From: Poseidonibacter lekithochrous
GTDB taxonomy: Bacteria > Campylobacterota > Campylobacteria > Campylobacterales > Arcobacteraceae
NCBI RefSeq assembly: GCF_013283835.1
Contig: NZ_CP054052.1
Coordinates: 2,542,001-2,606,000 of the forward strand
Direction of reading: 5' to 3'
DNA length: 64,000 bases
The stretch's first letter is position 1. Every line of letters starts with the position of its first letter. The translations under genes were made by a program, and so were the position numbers. Below the pieces are notes generated by a model. The model saw only the letters and a program-made list of their open reading frames with translations, was not told the origin of the DNA and did no database searches. This document shows, piece by piece, positions 1,133 through 11,664 of this stretch.

Positions 1133-1162
1133 AAGCCCTGAGGTATTTTCAAAGGGCTTTTA
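1133..1162. terminator. Bidirectional rho-independent terminator between AraC gene and histidine kinase
   Basis: Perfect 7-bp stem AAGCCCT (1133-1139) / AGGGCTT (1153-1159) with a 13-base loop, followed by TTTTAAG. It lies just after the AraC stop and overlaps the stop codon of the convergent kinase, so it can serve both genes. Confidence 0.6.
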
Positions 1163-3763
1163 AGAAATAGGAAGTGTTATCGTAAACTGGGCACCAGTAT
1201 ATTCAGTTTGCTCATACTTATAACTTGTATTATTAGATTCAATAGTTCCATTCATACCATCTACTATTAAATTATAAGTCATATAAAGTCCCAACCCTGT
1301 ACCTTGAGATTGTTGTTTAGTTGTAAAATATGGCTCGAATATTCTAGGTAATACATTTTCAGGTATTCCACCTGCATTGTCTTTGATTTTTATAACAGCT
1401 TTATCATTTTCTAAATATGAAGAAATAAATATAAGTTTATCATCAACATTTTTTTCATTTAAACTATCTTTTGCATTATTAAAAATATTGATAAAACATT
1501 GGATTAATTCATTTGCATATCCATTTATTTTAATATTATCATCTAACTCTAAAACTATAGAAATGTCATTACTTTTAATTGTACCATCTACTAATAGTAA
1601 AAAACTATTAATATCATTTGTTAAAGTAAAGATTTTTTTATTTTTTTCCCCTTTAATAAAGTCTCTAAAATCATCAATAGTTTTTGATAAGTATTGAGCA
1701 TTATTACCTATTGCATCACATGTACTATTAAACATATCATCACTTAATGCACCATATTCTTTTTGTAGTTTCATGCCTGTAACACCTGTAGATATTACAG
1801 AGAGAGGTTGTCTCCATTGATGAGCTATATTTCCTATCATTTCACCCATTGATGCTAGCTTTTCTGATTGAAATAGTTTTTCTTCTATCTTTCTACTTTT
1901 TTCAACTTCTAAAACTATCCTATCTTCAAGACTTCTATTAATTTCACTTATCTCTTTTGTTTTCTCTTTAACTAAATATTCTAAATTGTTATTAGCTTTT
2001 TTTAAGATGTAGTGTCTATATAAAAACAATAAAATAATAATAAATACAAAACCAAGAATCTGCCAAACTAATCTATAGTCAGTTCCTTTTTCATATTTGA
2101 TAGATACCCAATTGTTTAATATCTCTTGCTGTTTTTTGATATTAACACTTTTTACAGCTTTATTTAATACATTCAATAGAATTTGATCATCATTTCGAAC
2201 TGCTACACCAAGATGTGAGCTTTCATCAAGTTTTCCTGCTATTTTTAGATTAGCTAATAAACCTTTTTGGAATTGTAAACTTATACTTGGTAGCATTCCT
2301 ATATAACCATATAGTTCACCTTCATTTACTTTCATTAATCCATCTTGAATATTTTCTACTTCTACCATGATTAAGTTTGGATATTTATTTTTTAATAATT
2401 CAGCGTAAGAATAACCTTTTACTATCCCTACCCTTTTATTTTTAATATCTTCAATATTATTTATAAATGGTACATTCAATTTTGTTGCAATAACTATTGG
2501 TACATTTAAATACGGTACACTAAAATTAAGATAATTTTTTCTACTAGAAGTTTCCCTTGCCAAAGATAAAATATCACATTTTCTTGTTTTTACATTTTCT
2601 AGTGACTCACTCCATGTTTTTGTTTTTAATACAGTGATATCTGTTTTTAAATTATTTCTAAAAATATCATAGTAATCAGCAGTCATACCAATATGTTTAC
2701 CATTTTCATCAAACTTTTCAAAGGGCATAGCATTAGGGTCAATACACATAATAATGTTTTTTTTCTCTTTAAGATATTTTTTTTCTTTTTCTGTTAAGTT
2801 AATATTATTGATATTTTCATTGTATATAAATTCATTTATGTCAACTTGATTATCTAATAATCCCATAACATTGTACAAATCAGCAATTCTTTTGAGTTTA
2901 TTTTTATCAATATTTCCTAAATTATTAGTATTGTAAAAAGATAGTTTTTTAAGCTCTTTACCTTCAAAAATCAATTCTTCTTTTGATAAATTCTGTGTAT
3001 TATATTTTGATAGTATTAAATCAACAGATTCTTCGATATTAGAATATGCATACTCCCATCCTTTTAATGAAGCTCTTTTAAAAGCTTTTACCATTTTAGG
3101 TTCATTAGAAATCAGATGCTCACTTGTAAATAATAAATCACTATACATATCAAAACCATATTCTTTTGGTGCAAACATATTGTAACTTATCCCCTTATTT
3201 TGCAAAATAAAGGGTGATTTAGATGTATATGCAGACATAATATCAGTATTTTTTTCTATTAAATCATTTATGTCATGAGTATGTTTTAAAAAGTTTAAAT
3301 CTTCTAAATCAACATTTTTAGAATTAAGCATTGCTTTAAGAGAAACTTCACTTGCATTAGCAATTGTAGTCATGATTCTTTTATTTTTAAAATCATTGAT
3401 AGAATTTATTTTTGATTCTTTTGTAGTTAGAAGAACAAGAGGACTGGCTTGAAATAAAGCATATAAAGCAACAATATTTTTGTGCTTAGCTCTATCTAAA
3501 ATTAAAGCCTCTCTTCCAATTGCAAAGTCAATTGTATTATTACTAACCTCTTTTGGTATATCTATTCCAAATTTGAATGGTTTTATTTCAACATCCAATC
3601 CTAGTTCTTTATAAAAACCTTTTTCTTTTGCAATATAATAACCTGCAAATTGAAATTGGTCGAACCAAGATAATTGTAGAGTAACTTTCTTAACTTCTGA
3701 TGTTGCAGTTAAAGATTGTGTAAACAATAGTAAAATAATAATAAATTTATGTAAATAATTCAT
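1160..3763 (-). CDS. Hybrid sensor histidine kinase with NMT1/THI5-like and SBP_bac_3 sensing modules
   Basis: Inner-membrane sensor kinase of 867 aa. Residues 1-22 are a signal peptide or first membrane anchor. Residues 28-290 resemble NMT1/THI5/SsuA-type binding proteins (LSWFDQFQFAGYYIAKEKGF). Residues 335-555 resemble the solute-binding protein family 3. A membrane helix follows at 565-582, a coiled coil at 585-635, then the H-box SMGEMIGNIAHQWRQPL with phospho-accepting H648, the N-box FNNAKDSL (761-768), G1 DNAGGIP (795-801) and G2 GTGLGLYM (821-828). There is no receiver domain and no response regulator next door, so it is an orphan kinase. Two different periplasmic binding-protein folds in one sensor suggest it detects one or two small ligands; which ones is unknown. 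Confidence 0.9.
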   Translation of the reverse strand: MNYLHKFIIILLLFTQSLTATSEVKKVTLQLSWFDQFQFAGYYIAKEKGFYKELGLDVEIKPFKFGIDIPKEVSNNTIDFAIGREALILDRAKHKNIVALYALFQASPLVLLTTKESKINSINDFKNKRIMTTIANASEVSLKAMLNSKNVDLEDLNFLKHTHDINDLIEKNTDIMSAYTSKSPFILQNKGISYNMFAPKEYGFDMYSDLLFTSEHLISNEPKMVKAFKRASLKGWEYAYSNIEESVDLILSKYNTQNLSKEELIFEGKELKKLSFYNTNNLGNIDKNKLKRIADLYNVMGLLDNQVDINEFIYNENINNINLTEKEKKYLKEKKNIIMCIDPNAMPFEKFDENGKHIGMTADYYDIFRNNLKTDITVLKTKTWSESLENVKTRKCDILSLARETSSRKNYLNFSVPYLNVPIVIATKLNVPFINNIEDIKNKRVGIVKGYSYAELLKNKYPNLIMVEVENIQDGLMKVNEGELYGYIGMLPSISLQFQKGLLANLKIAGKLDESSHLGVAVRNDDQILLNVLNKAVKSVNIKKQQEILNNWVSIKYEKGTDYRLVWQILGFVFIIILLFLYRHYILKKANNNLEYLVKEKTKEISEINRSLEDRIVLEVEKSRKIEEKLFQSEKLASMGEMIGNIAHQWRQPLSVISTGVTGMKLQKEYGALSDDMFNSTCDAIGNNAQYLSKTIDDFRDFIKGEKNKKIFTLTNDINSFLLLVDGTIKSNDISIVLELDDNIKINGYANELIQCFINIFNNAKDSLNEKNVDDKLIFISSYLENDKAVIKIKDNAGGIPENVLPRIFEPYFTTKQQSQGTGLGLYMTYNLIVDGMNGTIESNNTSYKYEQTEYTGAQFTITLPIS

Positions 3764-4603: not shown

Positions 4604-6514
4604 TTGCAAACACTAGTAAATAATAAAGATAATAATATTATAAATAAAAATAAGCTTGTAAAACCAATCTTAAAATGGGCAGGAGGTAAAACGCAGCTTT
4701 TACCTGAATTAATTAGTAGAATGCCCCTTCAGTATAATAATTATATAGAACCATTTTTTGGTGGTGGAGCACTTTTTTTTGCAAATAACCCTGAAAACTC
4801 TATACTAGCTGATATTAACCCAGAACTTGTAAATCTTTATACCTCAATAGCTAAAGAACCACAGAATATTATTAGTATATTAAAAACTTACGAAAACTCA
4901 GAAGAATTTTTTTATGAAATGAGAGCTCAAGATTACAATTCTCTTACAAATATAGAAAAAGCAGCTAGAACTTTATTTTTAAATAAAACATGCTTTAATG
5001 GCCTATATAGAGTTAATAAAAAAGGATTATTCAATACTCCATATGGAAGATACAAAAATCCAAATTTCGTTAATGAAGATGGTATATTTGCAGCATCTCA
5101 GATGTTAAGTAATACAACATTTGAAAACTTAGGATATAAAGAAACACTTCATCTTCATGCAAAAGAAGGAGATTTTATATTTTTAGACCCACCATATTTA
5201 CCAATAGGAAAGTATGAAGACTTTAAAAGATATACAAAAGAAGGTTTTTACGAAGAAGATCACAAAGAATTAGCTAAAGAAGTTAAACGATTGTCCGAAA
5301 TTGGATGTCATGTTATACTAACTAATTCAAATTCACCTTTAGTTTACGATTTATACGAAGATTTTGATATTACTGTTGTACAAACTAAAAGGTATGTAAA
5401 TAGTAATGCTAATAAACGTACAGGAGAAGATATAATTGTATCTGCGCCTCCTAAACTTAGAAAAATGGTTAACATTGGGTATAAAGAATTACCAGAACAA
5501 GTATCCAAATATCCTACAACAAGGTATATGGGCAGTAAACAATCTTTATTAAAACAAATATCTAATGCTACGGCACCTTTTAAATTTGAATCTGTTTTAG
5601 ATCTATTCTCCGGAAGTGGAATTGTTAGTTATATGTTTAAAACACTTGGAAAAAGTGTGATTACAAATGATTATATGACTATGAATACAACTCTTTCAAA
5701 TGCATTAATTAGCAATTCAAATATTAAATTAACAGAAAAAGATATAAATCAATTATTAGAGGGTGAACAACATAATAATGGTTTTGTTTCACAAACATTT
5801 GAAAATATTTATTATACAGATGAAGATAATGCATTTATTGATTTAGTTCGAGAGAATATTACGAAGCTTAAATGTAAAACAAAACAAGCATTAGCGATGA
5901 GCGCATTAATAAGAGCATGTACAAAAAAAAGACCTAGAGGTATTTTTACATATACTGGGTTTAGATATAATGATGGTAGAAAAGATCTTAAAATGTCATT
6001 TGAGGAACAATTTTTATCTGCTATTGAAATTTTAAATAATGCTGTATTTGATAATGGTAAAGTGAATAAGTCATTGAATAAAGATGCAATGAGTTTAAGA
6101 TCAAAAGCTGACTTAGTCTATATAGACCCTCCTTACTATAATCCAACTTCTGATAATGAGTATGTTAGAAGATACCATTTTGTTGAAGGACTCTCTAGAG
6201 ATTGGAAAGATGTTCAAATGCAATGGGAAACAAAAACAAAAAAATTTAAAAACTATCCAACACCATTCAGTACGAAAATTGGTGCTTATGATGCATTTGA
6301 TAAACTATTTAGAAAACATAAAGATAGCATTTTAGTAGTTTCTTATTCTTCTAACTCTTTTCCTACAAAAGATGAAATGATAGGACTCTTGGCAAAATAC
6401 AAAAAAGATGTAGAAGTAATAGCAATAGACTACACATATAGTATGGGTAACCAAGCTCATAAAGTAAATGATAATAAAAATAGAGTACAAGAATATATTT
6501 TTATAGGCTACTAG
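4604..6514 (+). CDS. Bifunctional (two-headed) DNA adenine-N6 methyltransferase, M.FokI/M.LlaI type
   Basis: 636 aa made of two Dam-like (MethyltransfD12) domains in tandem. Domain 1: motif X KWAGGKT (24-30), SAM-binding EPFFGGGALFF (49-59) and catalytic DPPY (195-198). Domain 2: RYMGSKQ (307-313), LDLFSGSG (about 332-339) and a second DPPY (508-511). Families with this architecture (M.FokI, M.StsI, M.LlaI) methylate the two strands of an asymmetric site with separate domains. The start is TTG with AAGG upstream; no ATG fits better. It leads a tight operon, 4 bases before the McrB-like gene, so it should protect host DNA from the McrB/McrC nuclease. Both catalytic motifs are intact. The recognition sequence cannot be read from the protein. 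Confidence 0.9.
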   Translation: MQTLVNNKDNNIINKNKLVKPILKWAGGKTQLLPELISRMPLQYNNYIEPFFGGGALFFANNPENSILADINPELVNLYTSIAKEPQNIISILKTYENSEEFFYEMRAQDYNSLTNIEKAARTLFLNKTCFNGLYRVNKKGLFNTPYGRYKNPNFVNEDGIFAASQMLSNTTFENLGYKETLHLHAKEGDFIFLDPPYLPIGKYEDFKRYTKEGFYEEDHKELAKEVKRLSEIGCHVILTNSNSPLVYDLYEDFDITVVQTKRYVNSNANKRTGEDIIVSAPPKLRKMVNIGYKELPEQVSKYPTTRYMGSKQSLLKQISNATAPFKFESVLDLFSGSGIVSYMFKTLGKSVITNDYMTMNTTLSNALISNSNIKLTEKDINQLLEGEQHNNGFVSQTFENIYYTDEDNAFIDLVRENITKLKCKTKQALAMSALIRACTKKRPRGIFTYTGFRYNDGRKDLKMSFEEQFLSAIEILNNAVFDNGKVNKSLNKDAMSLRSKADLVYIDPPYYNPTSDNEYVRRYHFVEGLSRDWKDVQMQWETKTKKFKNYPTPFSTKIGAYDAFDKLFRKHKDSILVVSYSSNSFPTKDEMIGLLAKYKKDVEVIAIDYTYSMGNQAHKVNDNKNRVQEYIFIGY

Positions 6515-6518
6515 AAAA

Positions 6519-8372
6519 ATGACTAACAGAGAAAAATATATAATCGTTTTAAAAAAAATTGATGATTGGACAAATACTAAAAATTGGGCTGAAGAAATTG
6601 CAAAAGAATTTCCCGATTTATTAGAACATGTAGACCTACAAGCCAAAAAACACAATAAACCCAGCACAGGACTTGCTGAAATTAGACGTAGACTTGATAG
6701 TGACTTAAGTTCAAATGGACTTAAATATGTAGAAACAAAATTGGATAAAGAAAAAAAACATAAATTAGCAAGATATAATGAAAATTTTAATCAAGAGGAA
6801 AATTTAATGAATATAATTAATAGTACAGATGAGTTTTATGAACATTATAAAAAATCAGGTTTTTATTTCCCAACACCATTATTAACTACTTATGCACTTT
6901 CATTGCATACTAAGCCTTTTGTTCTATTATCTGGTATTAGTGGAACTGGTAAAACTAAGATTTCTCAACTATTCAATGTTATGGAAACTTCTGAAAAAGA
7001 TGAAGATGTACCAGTTGACACAGAATCATTTATTATTAAAGTACCAAAAACTTTTGATAGATTTAATTTCCCTCAAAAACTATTAGCAACAATATTAACA
7101 GAGAAGGAACTTGCAGAATTTAATAAAAATGCTGAAAAATTTAAAAAGAGTGGTTCTGGAGGAAATTTTACTAAAGCTCATATTTTAACTATTGAAGATA
7201 AATTTGGTGAATTTAAAATTGGAGTATATGGACAAAGAGCATCTAGTCCATTAATAAGAGCTAGATATAAAAAGAGCAGAACTGATAAAACTGGTGAAGA
7301 CTATGATTCAACAAAACATTTATCTCAAAACTATAATGTTGGTGATATATTAAAACTAGAAAAAACTGGAGAGAAAACGTTCAAAGTAGTCTCAGTAAAC
7401 GATACCACGGTAAAACAGCAAGTTGAAGCTCATGATTTAAATACTATTCAGCGTTTTTGTTTTATACCTGTAAAAAGTGATTGGACAGATAGTAGTGAAT
7501 TATTTGGTTTTTACAATTTAATAGAACAAAAATATCATATTACTAAATTTTTAGACTTCATTTTAACAGCAAGAAATAATCCCGAATATCCTTTCTTTGT
7601 TCTTTTTGATGAAATGAATTTATCTAAAGTGGAACATTACTTTAGTGATGTTCTTAGTTGTTTAGAGAGTAGAAGAATGGAAGAAGATAACATGCTCCAA
7701 GAACCAATCCCTTTATACAATGGATTGAATACATTAGTGACTGATTCAGAAAAGTTTGAAGAGATTCCAAATTCAATTGAACTTCCTACAAATTTGTATA
7801 TAACTGGTACAGTAAATATTGATGAAAGTACTTATATGTTTAGCCCAAAAGTATTAGATAGAGCTAATGTTATAGAATTTAATGAAGTAAACTTAGATAC
7901 TTACGGGAAAGAACTGCCAACGGATGATGATCAATATAAATTAAAAGATTTTCCGAATTTTACTGAACTTAATTTAGCAACAATGGAGTCATATAAGGGA
8001 CTTCCTCCAAAAATCAAAACACATCTAATTGAAATAAATGCAATTTTAAAAGAATATCATTTGCATTTTGGATATAGAACAGCAAATGAAGTAGCGCTAT
8101 ATATTAACAATGCTATAAAATATATTGATAACACTGAAATAACTCAATTAACTGCATTAGATAATCAATTGGTTCAAAAAGTATTTCCAAAACTAAATGG
8201 TAGTTATGCAATGCTTGAAGCACCTTTAAATAAAATTTTAAAATACCTGTCAAAACAAGATGATATTTCCAAAATTAAAGCTGAAGACACCTTATTTCCT
8301 AAAACTATTAATAAACTACAAAAAATGTATCACAAATTAGCCACAAGTGGATACACAAGTTTTATAGATTAA
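6519..8372 (+). CDS. McrB-like AAA+ GTPase subunit of a restriction endonuclease, with inserted domain
   Basis: 617 aa. Walker A GISGTGKT (139-146), Walker B FFVLFDE (359-365), the McrB-type sensor region TGTVNIDEST (429-438, equivalent to the MNTADRS motif) and a likely arginine finger LDRAN (446-450). Strand beta2 with the McrB-subfamily pattern FIPVKSDWTDSSELFGFYN (about 315-333) lies some 155 residues after the Walker A helix. In classical McrB this gap is short, so residues about 160-308 form an inserted, partly beta-rich domain. The N-terminal 100 residues show no known DNA-binding module. In this family GTP hydrolysis drives translocation and activates the partner nuclease. The gene is 4 bases after the methyltransferase and 1 base before the McrC-like gene. 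Confidence 0.87.
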   Translation: MTNREKYIIVLKKIDDWTNTKNWAEEIAKEFPDLLEHVDLQAKKHNKPSTGLAEIRRRLDSDLSSNGLKYVETKLDKEKKHKLARYNENFNQEENLMNIINSTDEFYEHYKKSGFYFPTPLLTTYALSLHTKPFVLLSGISGTGKTKISQLFNVMETSEKDEDVPVDTESFIIKVPKTFDRFNFPQKLLATILTEKELAEFNKNAEKFKKSGSGGNFTKAHILTIEDKFGEFKIGVYGQRASSPLIRARYKKSRTDKTGEDYDSTKHLSQNYNVGDILKLEKTGEKTFKVVSVNDTTVKQQVEAHDLNTIQRFCFIPVKSDWTDSSELFGFYNLIEQKYHITKFLDFILTARNNPEYPFFVLFDEMNLSKVEHYFSDVLSCLESRRMEEDNMLQEPIPLYNGLNTLVTDSEKFEEIPNSIELPTNLYITGTVNIDESTYMFSPKVLDRANVIEFNEVNLDTYGKELPTDDDQYKLKDFPNFTELNLATMESYKGLPPKIKTHLIEINAILKEYHLHFGYRTANEVALYINNAIKYIDNTEITQLTALDNQLVQKVFPKLNGSYAMLEAPLNKILKYLSKQDDISKIKAEDTLFPKTINKLQKMYHKLATSGYTSFID

Positions 8373-8373
8373 T

Positions 8374-9957
8374 ATGAAAATATTTGAAGATGAATTAAAA
8401 ACGATAAGAGTCGATAATCAGTTATTAGAGAATAAAACATATTATATAGATTTCGAATCTGCCAGCTCGAATGCTATATTAGAGGAATTAACAAAAACAA
8501 AACTTAAGAATTTTGTTAATTGGCAAAGGGGAAATCAATTTGCATCTATTGCCATTAAAAACTTTATTGGTAATATATATTTTTTTGGTAATACATATGA
8601 TGTAAAAAGTAGCAAATTTCTAACTGAGCTGTCAGGTTCTGATCAATTCCAAACACTCCTAAATGATATTCAAAGTTTATCGAAAAATGTAATTTTTAGT
8701 TATAGTTCACCTTCTTTTGTTATGAGAGAAGTTGACTTTACAGATATTCAACCTAGTCTATTATTAATATTTAATTATTACAAACAGATTATTTTACAAT
8801 GGGGACATACTAAAAATCTTGAATCAAGCTTCCTCCGTATAATTAATAACCCAAACTTTAAATATGAACATAATTATAAAATGGAACATATTCACAAAAT
8901 AACGAAAGTTGATAGAAAAACACTTTCATCTTTGGCAAAAGACTCTAAATACTACATAAAAATAGATGAAAGTAAAAATCACTTATTAACCCTTCCTATT
9001 ACTAATTTTATCTCTAAAAATTCAAATGACAACTATTTCCCTCAAAAAACTTTAATTAAAAAAAAGTATTTAAGTTATAATACTTTAGAAAATCAATTTG
9101 TGAAATTCTTTTTTGAATATATTGAAAGTATTTCTTACCAATTAAATGGTGTGAAAAATCTGCCAGAAAACGTCTTTAAGGAAATTGAAGATGTTCTTTC
9201 TTTTTGTCATATGACACTTAGGAATCCATTCTTCAAAGATATAGGACAAATGCAAACAATACCTATCAATTCTACTGTTTTACAAAGTAGAGCTGGATAT
9301 AAAGATATATTAGATCATTTTACAAGAAGTCGTTTTGGTATCAAACATGTCTTTGATGAATTTATTCAAGAATCTATGTCAATTGATTTAAAACGTATTT
9401 CTGACCTTTATGAATACTGGGTATTTTATCAAATAGCAATCTCATTTTTAGGTAACGATATAATTATAGAACAACAAGACATTGTTCTCAAAGATGGTAA
9501 TGTATCTTACGGCATATGCTTTAAAAATAAAGATATGTCAGTATATTACAATTATACAGAATCAAGATCAAGAAAGACTACATACAGTGTATCACTTAGA
9601 CCAGATACTATGGTTAAGATTAAAAAAGATAATAAGACAATAAAATTAATTTTTGATGCTAAATACAAAGTAAAAAATAAATCAACTGAAGAAGGAATTG
9701 AAAGGCATATCAAGCCAGAGGATATTTACAAAATGCATACATATTTAGATGCTATTGAAAATTCTCTTTTTGCAGTTGCTATTTATCCAGGAACAGAATT
9801 TTATTTTTATGAAAGAATAGCGGGTTCTCAGATAAGAACTAATGTGGAATCTATCGAGACTTTTAATGGGGTAGGAGCAATACCCTTAATTCCTAATGAT
9901 CGAGATTCGTTGAATCAATTTGATCAATTTGTTTTAAAACTAAAAGAATTAATTTAA
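8374..9957 (+). CDS. McrC-like restriction nuclease subunit (DUF2357 plus PD-(D/E)XK)
   Basis: 527 aa. The N-terminal and middle parts (about 1-330) match the DUF2357-type region of McrC relatives. The C-terminal nuclease domain shows LYEYWVFYQ (345-353), SLRPDTMV (407-414), the catalytic FDAKYK (427-432) and YKMHTY (452-457), in the order expected for PDDEXK_7/McrC nucleases; likely catalytic residues are D411, D428 and K430. It is the cutting subunit and should work only with the McrB-like GTPase encoded one base upstream. The gene is complete, starts with ATG, and ends the operon. Confidence 0.87.
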   Translation: MKIFEDELKTIRVDNQLLENKTYYIDFESASSNAILEELTKTKLKNFVNWQRGNQFASIAIKNFIGNIYFFGNTYDVKSSKFLTELSGSDQFQTLLNDIQSLSKNVIFSYSSPSFVMREVDFTDIQPSLLLIFNYYKQIILQWGHTKNLESSFLRIINNPNFKYEHNYKMEHIHKITKVDRKTLSSLAKDSKYYIKIDESKNHLLTLPITNFISKNSNDNYFPQKTLIKKKYLSYNTLENQFVKFFFEYIESISYQLNGVKNLPENVFKEIEDVLSFCHMTLRNPFFKDIGQMQTIPINSTVLQSRAGYKDILDHFTRSRFGIKHVFDEFIQESMSIDLKRISDLYEYWVFYQIAISFLGNDIIIEQQDIVLKDGNVSYGICFKNKDMSVYYNYTESRSRKTTYSVSLRPDTMVKIKKDNKTIKLIFDAKYKVKNKSTEEGIERHIKPEDIYKMHTYLDAIENSLFAVAIYPGTEFYFYERIAGSQIRTNVESIETFNGVGAIPLIPNDRDSLNQFDQFVLKLKELI

Positions 9958-10421: not shown

Positions 10422-10701
10422 AGTAACCTCAATATCAAATTTTAATGATTATAACTAAAAGATCATAATTATTTATATAAAAGAAATTATTGAGAGACAA
10501 CTAGATTCTAAGAAAGATTAAGACAGTTATCTTTTTTTGATGATAGCGAAATTTTTACTTGATTAGACGAGAACAATTAATATACGAAAGCTTTATTAAC
10601 TTTCATATGTACACTTTATAATTATTATATAAAATTGAATCTATTAATCAATAATAGACTATATTACTGTTATAAACAGTTAAGTACAAAGGAAGATTAA
10701 G
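10422..10701. other. Gene-free stretch with two operator-like dyads
   Basis: No gene seen. Two dyads lie close together: TCTATTA / TAATAGA (10640-10646, 10652-10658; 5-base spacer) and ACTGTT / AACAGT (10666-10671, 10675-10680; 3-base spacer). The second contains TATAAA, which could act as a -10 box for the small ORF at 10702. Confidence 0.4.
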
Positions 10702-10809
10702 ATGAGTATCACTTCAATTCTAAATAATACTACGGGGGAAGAAATATTAGTTTTAGATATATTTAAAGTAAATCTTTCTTCCCCTTTGACCTACTTGATG
10801 GTATTTTAA
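10702..10809 (+). CDS. Short ORF, possibly the 5' end of a truncated gene
   Basis: 35 codons from an ATG with a plausible Shine-Dalgarno (AGGA, 8 bases upstream) and promoter-like dyads before it. The product begins MSITSILNNTTGEEILVLD and then enters sequence antisense to the decayed recombinase. The frame change in origin near 10745-10775, marked by a 10-bp inverted repeat, suggests the start of another gene was joined to recombinase debris. Function unknown; it may not be expressed. Confidence 0.25.
   Translation: MSITSILNNTTGEEILVLDIFKVNLSSPLTYLMVF
10735..10784. repeat. 10-bp perfect inverted repeat at the broken end of the recombinase
   Basis: GGGGAAGAAA (10735-10744) and TTTCTTCCCC (10775-10784), spacer 30 bases. 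This G/C-rich pair stands out in AT-rich surroundings and coincides with the point where similarity to a tyrosine recombinase stops on the minus strand. It may mark a rearrangement junction. Confidence 0.45.
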
Positions 10810-11562
10810 AAACATTTGTCTCAAAATTAACATCCGAATATTTTAATCCTAGTACCTCACCAGTACTTGTAGATACTGATAAACTGCCTCACCCTCTATT
10901 GGCAATCTTGAATATTCTCTCATTGCATTATAAATCTTCTTAGTATCTTAAAGTACACTCAACCTTATTATCAAACTCGGGTAACTCTAATCCATCTAAA
11001 TTTAATCCTATCTTCTTTGCAAATGTTTTAATTGTATCACCCAATAATGAAACAGTAGCAGGTGCTTTAGTTTGCATTTGATTATTAATAATATCTTGTA
11101 CATCATCGACTGAATATCATCAATTACAAACTCATGTAAGGTACTACAATGTGTTATTAGAGCAGTTTTATAGTTTTAAATTGTAGAAGCTCTTGCAGAA
11201 ATAGACTTTGTTTCTATATATCTATTTACTACTTCTAAAAAAGTTTCAGCTTTTTTTGACTCTTCAATAGCTATTTTCTTTGGTCTTAATGTACCCTCTT
11301 TTATCAAAATATCTTTTATTACTTGTCTTTGGTTCGATATTTCTTCTAATGCAGATAAAAAAGTAGTTTTCTTATTATTGAATTCAAATGTCTTTTTACC
11401 TGTTTTATTTCCAACTTTTGTTCTTAGCTATAATTTAAAAGGATTTGTAAGTAGCTTTGTTGCTTCTTTAGAATCTCTGATACATCTTATATCTGAATTA
11501 GTAAATAGGTATATACCTTTACAATCTTTATTTGGAATTTTGATATTTATATATTTCCCCAT
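10762..11562 (-). pseudogene. Decayed phage-type tyrosine recombinase (integrase)
   Basis: On the minus strand an ATG at 11562 with Shine-Dalgarno AAAGG begins MGKYINIKIPNKDCKGIYLF, a phage-integrase-like N-terminus. The reading continues through two in-frame stops (after TNPFKL and after ARASTI) and at least three frameshifts. Recognisable pieces are FLEVVNRYIETKSI (SAM-like core-binding domain) and TGEVLGLKYSDVNFETNVF (start of the catalytic domain). The catalytic Arg expected before TGE appears to be Ser (AGT), and the later H-x-x-R and Tyr motifs are absent. The gene is dead and truncated. It suggests that the neighbouring restriction operon arrived on an integrating element that can no longer move by itself. 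Confidence 0.7.
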
Positions 11563-11664
11563 ATTGAGCCTTTCTATATAAGTACACTTTTTTGTAATAA
11601 CCTATACATAAGTATAACTATTTACAATTGCCTATTTAAAGTACCTATAGCACTCTGTAACTAA

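Follow-up and report, generated by a model that had tools for sequence, protein, structure and literature searches.

A predicted GGATC restriction-modification operon in Poseidonibacter lekithochrous joining an AlwI-type methyltransferase to McrBC-like genes with a putative B3-like reader

Three intact open reading frames were identified on the forward strand at positions 4604-9957 of the 64,000-nucleotide stretch of Poseidonibacter lekithochrous DNA chosen for the analysis (hereafter referred to as the window). They encode a DNA methyltransferase (4604-6514, TTG start, 636 amino acids), a McrB-like GTPase (6519-8372, 617 amino acids) and a McrC-like nuclease (8374-9957, 527 amino acids), with intergenic gaps of 4 nt between the first two and 1 nt between the last two. 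The three-gene methyltransferase-McrB-McrC operon is confirmed as real and intact, far beyond chance, and fits best the description of a GGATC methyltransferase of the AlwI type combined with a LlaJI-like McrBC pair that carries a predicted B3 reader inside its motor. The operon is most likely a working restriction-modification (R-M) system, and the reading preferred here, with a probability of about 0.7, is that of a modification-blocked system in which the methyltransferase would protect GGATC, the B3-like insert of McrB would read the unmethylated GGATC and McrBC would cut the DNA. It is based on the gene order, the domains, the methyltransferase family and the exchange of nuclease partners, together with the predicted fold of the insert. 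The initial annotation of this DNA had described a methyltransferase with two DPPY sites followed at 4 and 1 bases by McrB-like and McrC-like genes; both DPPY sites are present, and the two downstream genes are identified by motifs and modelled fold (McrB) and by Pfam domains and nuclease residues (McrC).

The methyltransferase (4604..6514, forward strand) is a fused, two-headed m6A DNA methyltransferase, in which each head has a SAM-binding motif of its own. The N-terminal, Dam/DpnM-like head (residues ~18-280; 4655..5443, forward strand) carries FFGGG at residue 51 and DPPY at residue 195 (5186-5197) and is matched by TIGR00571 and, in the PDB, by DpnM (2dpm, E 4e-65) and E. coli Dam (2g1p, E 3e-34). 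The C-terminal D12 head (residues ~303-636; 5510..6511, forward strand) carries FSGSG at residue 335 and DPPY at residue 508 (6125-6136) and corresponds to the second of two MethyltransfD12 (PF02086) matches and to the PADLOC MTase_II models, which align to about residues 301-636. Pfam gives the two MethyltransfD12 matches in the protein with E 1.1e-79, and the MTase_II model PDLC03261 covers the protein in its full length with 984 bits. The two D12 domains score 209 and 71 bits in the search of the genome, where no second D12 methyltransferase was found elsewhere.

The fusion of two m6A heads and the full-length similarity to the AlwI-associated methyltransferases place the protein, by sequence, in the M.AlwI/M.EacI/M.GmeI family. 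DpnM and Dam are GATC enzymes. In the fused enzymes M.GmeI, M.AlwI and M.EacI, one head makes GGm6ATC and the other Gm6ATCC, and SMRT data support GGATC methylation for M.GmeI (PMC3526280). Because this family methylates GGATC and the N-terminal head is nearest to DpnM and Dam, GGATC on both strands is the target to be expected for the enzyme of the window, with GGm6ATC and Gm6ATCC as the predicted products. LlaI and FokI, with which the enzyme had been compared earlier, give way here to M.AlwI, M.EacI and M.GmeI as the documented kin, whose relatives usually adjoin AlwI-type nucleases.

Full-length relatives of the methyltransferase with 55-60% identity were found on plasmids of Geobacillus, Priestia, Acinetobacter and others, most of them followed by a gene for an AlwI-family endonuclease, and a Pfam check found PF09491 in two of the AlwI-family endonucleases beside methyltransferase relatives. 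When 84,980 species genomes were scanned, 80 full-length relatives from other genomes were obtained, 72 of which have an AlwI nuclease alone beside the methyltransferase. The same methyltransferase-McrB-McrC order was observed in two (L041 and L051), one (L048) has both machines, with AlwI 3' of the methyltransferase and a divergent McrBC 5' of it, and five have neither AlwI nor McrBC beside the methyltransferase. In two of these five, L097 and L108, the predicted nuclease gene is of a different kind: it has a DUF7226 domain, codes for about 350 amino acids and follows the M.AlwI-type methyltransferase (L097:7821-8858; L108:4854-5912). No nuclease was seen beside the methyltransferases of L053, L095 and L102. 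A remnant of a DUF7226 nuclease is present at L002:7803-8297, and the M.AlwI-type methyltransferase family has at least three kinds of nuclease partners (AlwI, McrBC and DUF7226). The homologue search for the three-gene order, suggested in the initial annotation, was thus answered by L041 and L051; the same two loci dispose of the concern raised there that the homologues might always occur without the McrB and McrC genes, yet most of the methyltransferase homologues do lack McrBC.

No AlwI-family endonuclease gene lies next to the methyltransferase of the window, and McrB and McrC occupy its place. The closest methyltransferase in the other genomes of the phylum (G235, 75% identity), from another family of the same order, is followed by an AlwI endonuclease, so that the nuclease partner was swapped within a close methyltransferase clade. 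The methyltransferase of L040, with an AlwI partner, has 75% identity to that of the window. In a tree of 86 methyltransferases, those of the window and L041 are sisters (support 94) and L040, with AlwI, joins both at 100, while L051 and L048 are placed elsewhere. Three changes of the McrBC label are required on this tree, at least two of them forced by the starred branches. The spread of this label therefore indicates that on more than one occasion McrBC was added to, or took the place of, the AlwI nuclease, or that the partners were swapped repeatedly. L048, with both nucleases, may represent an intermediate in the exchange. At this Oxalobacteraceae locus (L048:560-8325) a divergent B3-insert McrBC adjoins a complete AlwI-type R-M pair, and one methyltransferase possibly serves two restriction machines. 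The presence of McrBC in the slot of the cognate nuclease favours a cognate role.

The McrB-like protein (6519..8372, forward strand) was recognised as an AAA+ GTPase of the NxD-motif type by its motifs, fold and relatives, and Pfam gave no match to it at 1e-3. It has a Walker A motif GISGTGKT (residue 139; 6933..6956, forward strand), a Walker B motif DEMN (residue 364; 7608..7619, forward strand) and an NxD signature instead of NxxD (N433-I-D435 in GTVNID, residues 430-435, of GTVNIDES; 7815..7823, forward strand). The solved structure nearest to the modelled AAA+ core is that of E. coli McrB (6ut6, Z 11.7, rmsd 3.4, 164 residues aligned), and the AAA+ GTPase motifs and the McrB-like core fold assign the protein to McrBC, for which a GTP-driven function would be expected. 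The NxD and NxxD signatures are defined in the sections of PMC11090510 considered here, according to which the NxD-motif McrB GTPases were uncharacterised at that time. An N-terminal helical extension (residues 1-103; 6519..6827, forward strand; low-confidence model) is absent from the McrB proteins of L041, L051 and L048 and has no homologue in plasmids. Assignment to the CoCoNuT systems, tested by their hallmark of a long coiled-coil fused to McrB and a HEPN or other effector, was ruled out, as the McrB extension is only 103 amino acids long, the operon has no effector gene and the McrC nuclease is intact.

The McrC-like nuclease (8374..9957, forward strand) contains DUF2357 (about 8635-9315; Pfam E 3.9e-28) and a PD-(D/E)xK domain (about 9406-9795; PDDEXK_7, E 7.7e-15) with intact nuclease residues RPD (409) and DAK (428), as in McrBC systems. 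Searches for relatives of McrC by peptide patterns in genome contigs found none, and none were found in the 396 other genomes of the phylum.

An insert between Walker A and Walker B of McrB (residues 153-313; 6975..7457, forward strand) is predicted to have a B3-like DNA-recognition fold. An insert of about 160-175 residues is common to the McrB of the window and its four closest relatives, those of L041, L051, L048 and L123; the five form a single clade (support 89/96) and have a Walker A-B spacing of 225-240 as against 73-80 in most other McrB homologues. Other insertions occur at the same place in L122 and L135 and after Walker B in L006, in agreement with the general remark, in the part of PMC11090510 drawn on here, that insertions, likely to encode specificity domains, are frequent in the GTPase domains of McrB proteins. 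Sequence searches with the insert in PDB, Pfam, plasmids and phages gave nothing credible, and the B3 fold was seen by fold comparison only. The insert modelled alone by AlphaFold from a 5-sequence alignment (mean pLDDT 75) has the element order b1 b2 a b3 b4 b5 a b6 b7; its top Foldseek match is the N-terminal B3 domain of LlaJI.R1 (probability 0.99), and rows 1-22 of the structural list all have the B3 fold (FUS3, VAL1, BfiI, LlaJI.R1, EcoRII and others) with modest Z-scores (under 8, the best being 6.6). Conservation at the loops that we take to be the DNA-binding arms of B3 (p 0.003 for strict loop limits, 1e-5 for wider ones, both set after the alignment had been seen) is no more than suggestive. 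The insert thus models as a B3 DNA-recognition domain, and specificity probably sits inside the motor; the earlier claim that there is no separate specificity subunit stands to the extent that none is encoded as a gene of its own, but McrB has this internal B3-like domain.

The nature of the reader bears on what McrBC would recognise. The site-specific DNA binding of H. pylori LlaJI is due to its N-terminal B3 domain, while E. coli McrB reads methylcytosine by DUF3578 and T. gammatolerans McrB reads 6mA by a YTH fold (PMC7680126), so that the target indicated by a B3 reader is an unmodified sequence and not modified bases. This matters for a type IV defence placed beside a solitary methyltransferase, in which McrBC would cut DNA modified in another methylation pattern: classical McrBC is methylation-dependent (PMC1459862), and orphan-like M.AlwI-type methyltransferases do exist, as in L053, L095 and L102 with no visible nuclease. 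Such a defence is nevertheless considered unlikely, as L041 and L051 keep the tight operon order in the usual AlwI slot and the predicted reader has the B3 fold, whose members in restriction enzymes read unmodified sites, and not DUF3578 or YTH (PMC7680126). In the type IV McrBC of E. coli, cutting depends on methylation and there is no cognate methyltransferase; the operon of the window does encode a methyltransferase. McrBC might also read some other unmethylated site, longer than or unrelated to GGATC, with the methyltransferase giving partial protection or acting with another methyltransferase. The specificity of a B3 domain is unreadable from sequence and the McrB of the window has the extra 103-residue N-terminal extension missing in its relatives, but the McrB proteins of the single insert clade stand beside three separate branches of GGATC-family methyltransferases and the genome has no second D12 methyltransferase, so that recognition of another site appears improbable. 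The co-occurrence of insert-bearing McrB and methyltransferase is ascertainment-biased, as L041, L048 and L051 were obtained via the methyltransferase scan; the sole insert relative found independently of the methyltransferase is L123, a short IMG/VR viral contig with a B3-insert McrB and McrC that ends 5' of McrB. No further insert-bearing McrB was detected with the McrB/insert profile in 296 genomes of the phylum of L051, 369 of the class of L048 or 349 of the phylum of L041.

In the preferred, modification-blocked system, the methyltransferase would mark both strands of GGATC with m6A, one head making GGm6ATC and the other Gm6ATCC, and the B3-like insert of McrB would bind the unmethylated GGATC as its putative target. 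McrB and McrC would constitute an AAA+ translocating endonuclease, in which McrB may hydrolyse nucleotide, GTP by analogy with the family, and move the DNA, and the PD-(D/E)xK domain of McrC would cut it. Such a system would have arisen by replacement of the usual AlwI-type nuclease with a McrBC that has a reader of its own for this site. For the specificity being located in the AAA+ protein as a B3 insert between Walker A and Walker B, with a motor that replaced AlwI while GGATC was kept and two unrelated nucleases hence convergent on one site, the odds seem a little better than even. The McrBC-powered, modification-blocked operon with an asymmetric target, as first proposed, is supported by the genomic context, while GTP use, by analogy, and restriction activity are predicted.

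Among the closest known systems, the type IIS R-M systems AlwI, EacI and GmeI (GGATC) resemble the operon in the fused two-headed methyltransferase, 55-75% identical, encoded 5' of the nuclease, but they cut with an AlwI-family type IIS endonuclease (PF09491) and have no GTPase motor. LlaJI of Lactococcus and its H. pylori homologue share the two restriction genes, a McrB-like R1 with B3 and a McrC-like R2, and the modification-blocked mode with an asymmetric site, predicted in the present case; however, their B3 domain is at the N-terminus of R1 and not between Walker A and Walker B, and their methyltransferases and site are different. The LlaJI methyltransferases are two separate C5 enzymes. 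E. coli McrBC has the same AAA+ core fold and the DUF2357 and PD-(D/E)xK nuclease, but differs in its N-terminal DUF3578 5mC reader, the NxxD motif, the lack of a methyltransferase and its methylation dependence. The methylase of LlaI, like that of the window, has two domains. A strict LlaI homologue, with FokI/LlaI-type specificity and McrBC subunits, was the reading first proposed. In its favour, LlaI pairs the methylase gene llaIM with a set of three restriction genes that includes a McrB-like one, and LlaI and BsuMI both combine a methylase with a McrB-like GTPase and a nuclease. According to PMC1459862, however, the restriction genes of LlaI and BsuMI number three and the GTPase is short (~340 amino acids; ~337 in LlaI), whereas the operon, when compared with LlaI by its described layout, has two and a long GTPase of 617 amino acids, nearer to the LlaJI layout. 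The methyltransferase, moreover, clusters with the AlwI-partnered ones in the tree, which leaves strict homology to LlaI with very little probability. Among the full-length relatives of the methyltransferase in the plasmid collection, none was lactococcal. The NxD methyltransferase-associated McrBC systems of Bell et al. 2024 (PMC11090510) share the NxD motif, the association with a methyltransferase and the insertions in the GTPase domain; in the sections of that paper considered here such systems are deferred to a later publication, with no mention of a B3 identity or an AlwI-type partner. The combination of three genes, a NxD-motif GTPase, a predicted internal B3 and an AlwI-type methyltransferase is new within the LlaI/LlaJI kind.

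Word counts and the surroundings of the operon were also examined. Of all 5-mers, GGATC exceeds its Markov expectation the most in a 464 kb sample of the source genome, which shows no avoidance of the word, and a similar excess is present in three relatives of the genus (G342, G1063 and G359). Avoidance of GGATC was dropped as evidence of restriction, as the excess is genus-wide and the operon is unseen among the genus matches listed; since genus members without a seen operon show a similar excess, it says nothing on the system. GATC occurs at 0.34-0.46 of Markov expectation throughout the genus, with GGATC relatively spared (sample L153-L172; G342, G1063, G359), a pattern not connected with the operon. 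In G235, with an AlwI nuclease and the 75%-identical methyltransferase, GGATC is under-represented (L207-L212; 0.63, rank 6 of 1022). No copy of the operon was found in the genus among the matches listed, which cover the flanking genes only, and the operon appears to be strain-specific. A gene-poor stretch with broken reading frames lies on the reverse strand at 10700-11650, one of the frames being weakly similar to a phage integrase (PF00589, E 0.009, below the cut-off), and the stretch may be what is left of an element through which the operon arrived. The reverse strand at 1160-3763 encodes an 867-amino-acid protein in which NMT1-like and SBP_bac_3 sensing domains are joined to a histidine kinase, and stretches related to this gene are many in the genus.

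The operon amounts to a natural experiment: the methyltransferase has stayed nearly constant (75% identity between the window and L040) while the restriction machine has changed from a type IIS enzyme to a predicted nucleotide-driven motor. It predicts GGATC as the site of an uncharacterised NxD-branch McrBC, which makes the biochemistry of this branch directly testable, and the putative B3 reader lies where it could link recognition of the DNA site with the nucleotide site of the motor. As the swapped-in motor seems to bring its own DNA-reading domain, the findings suggest that cutting machines are exchangeable while the protected DNA word, GGATC, stays constant.
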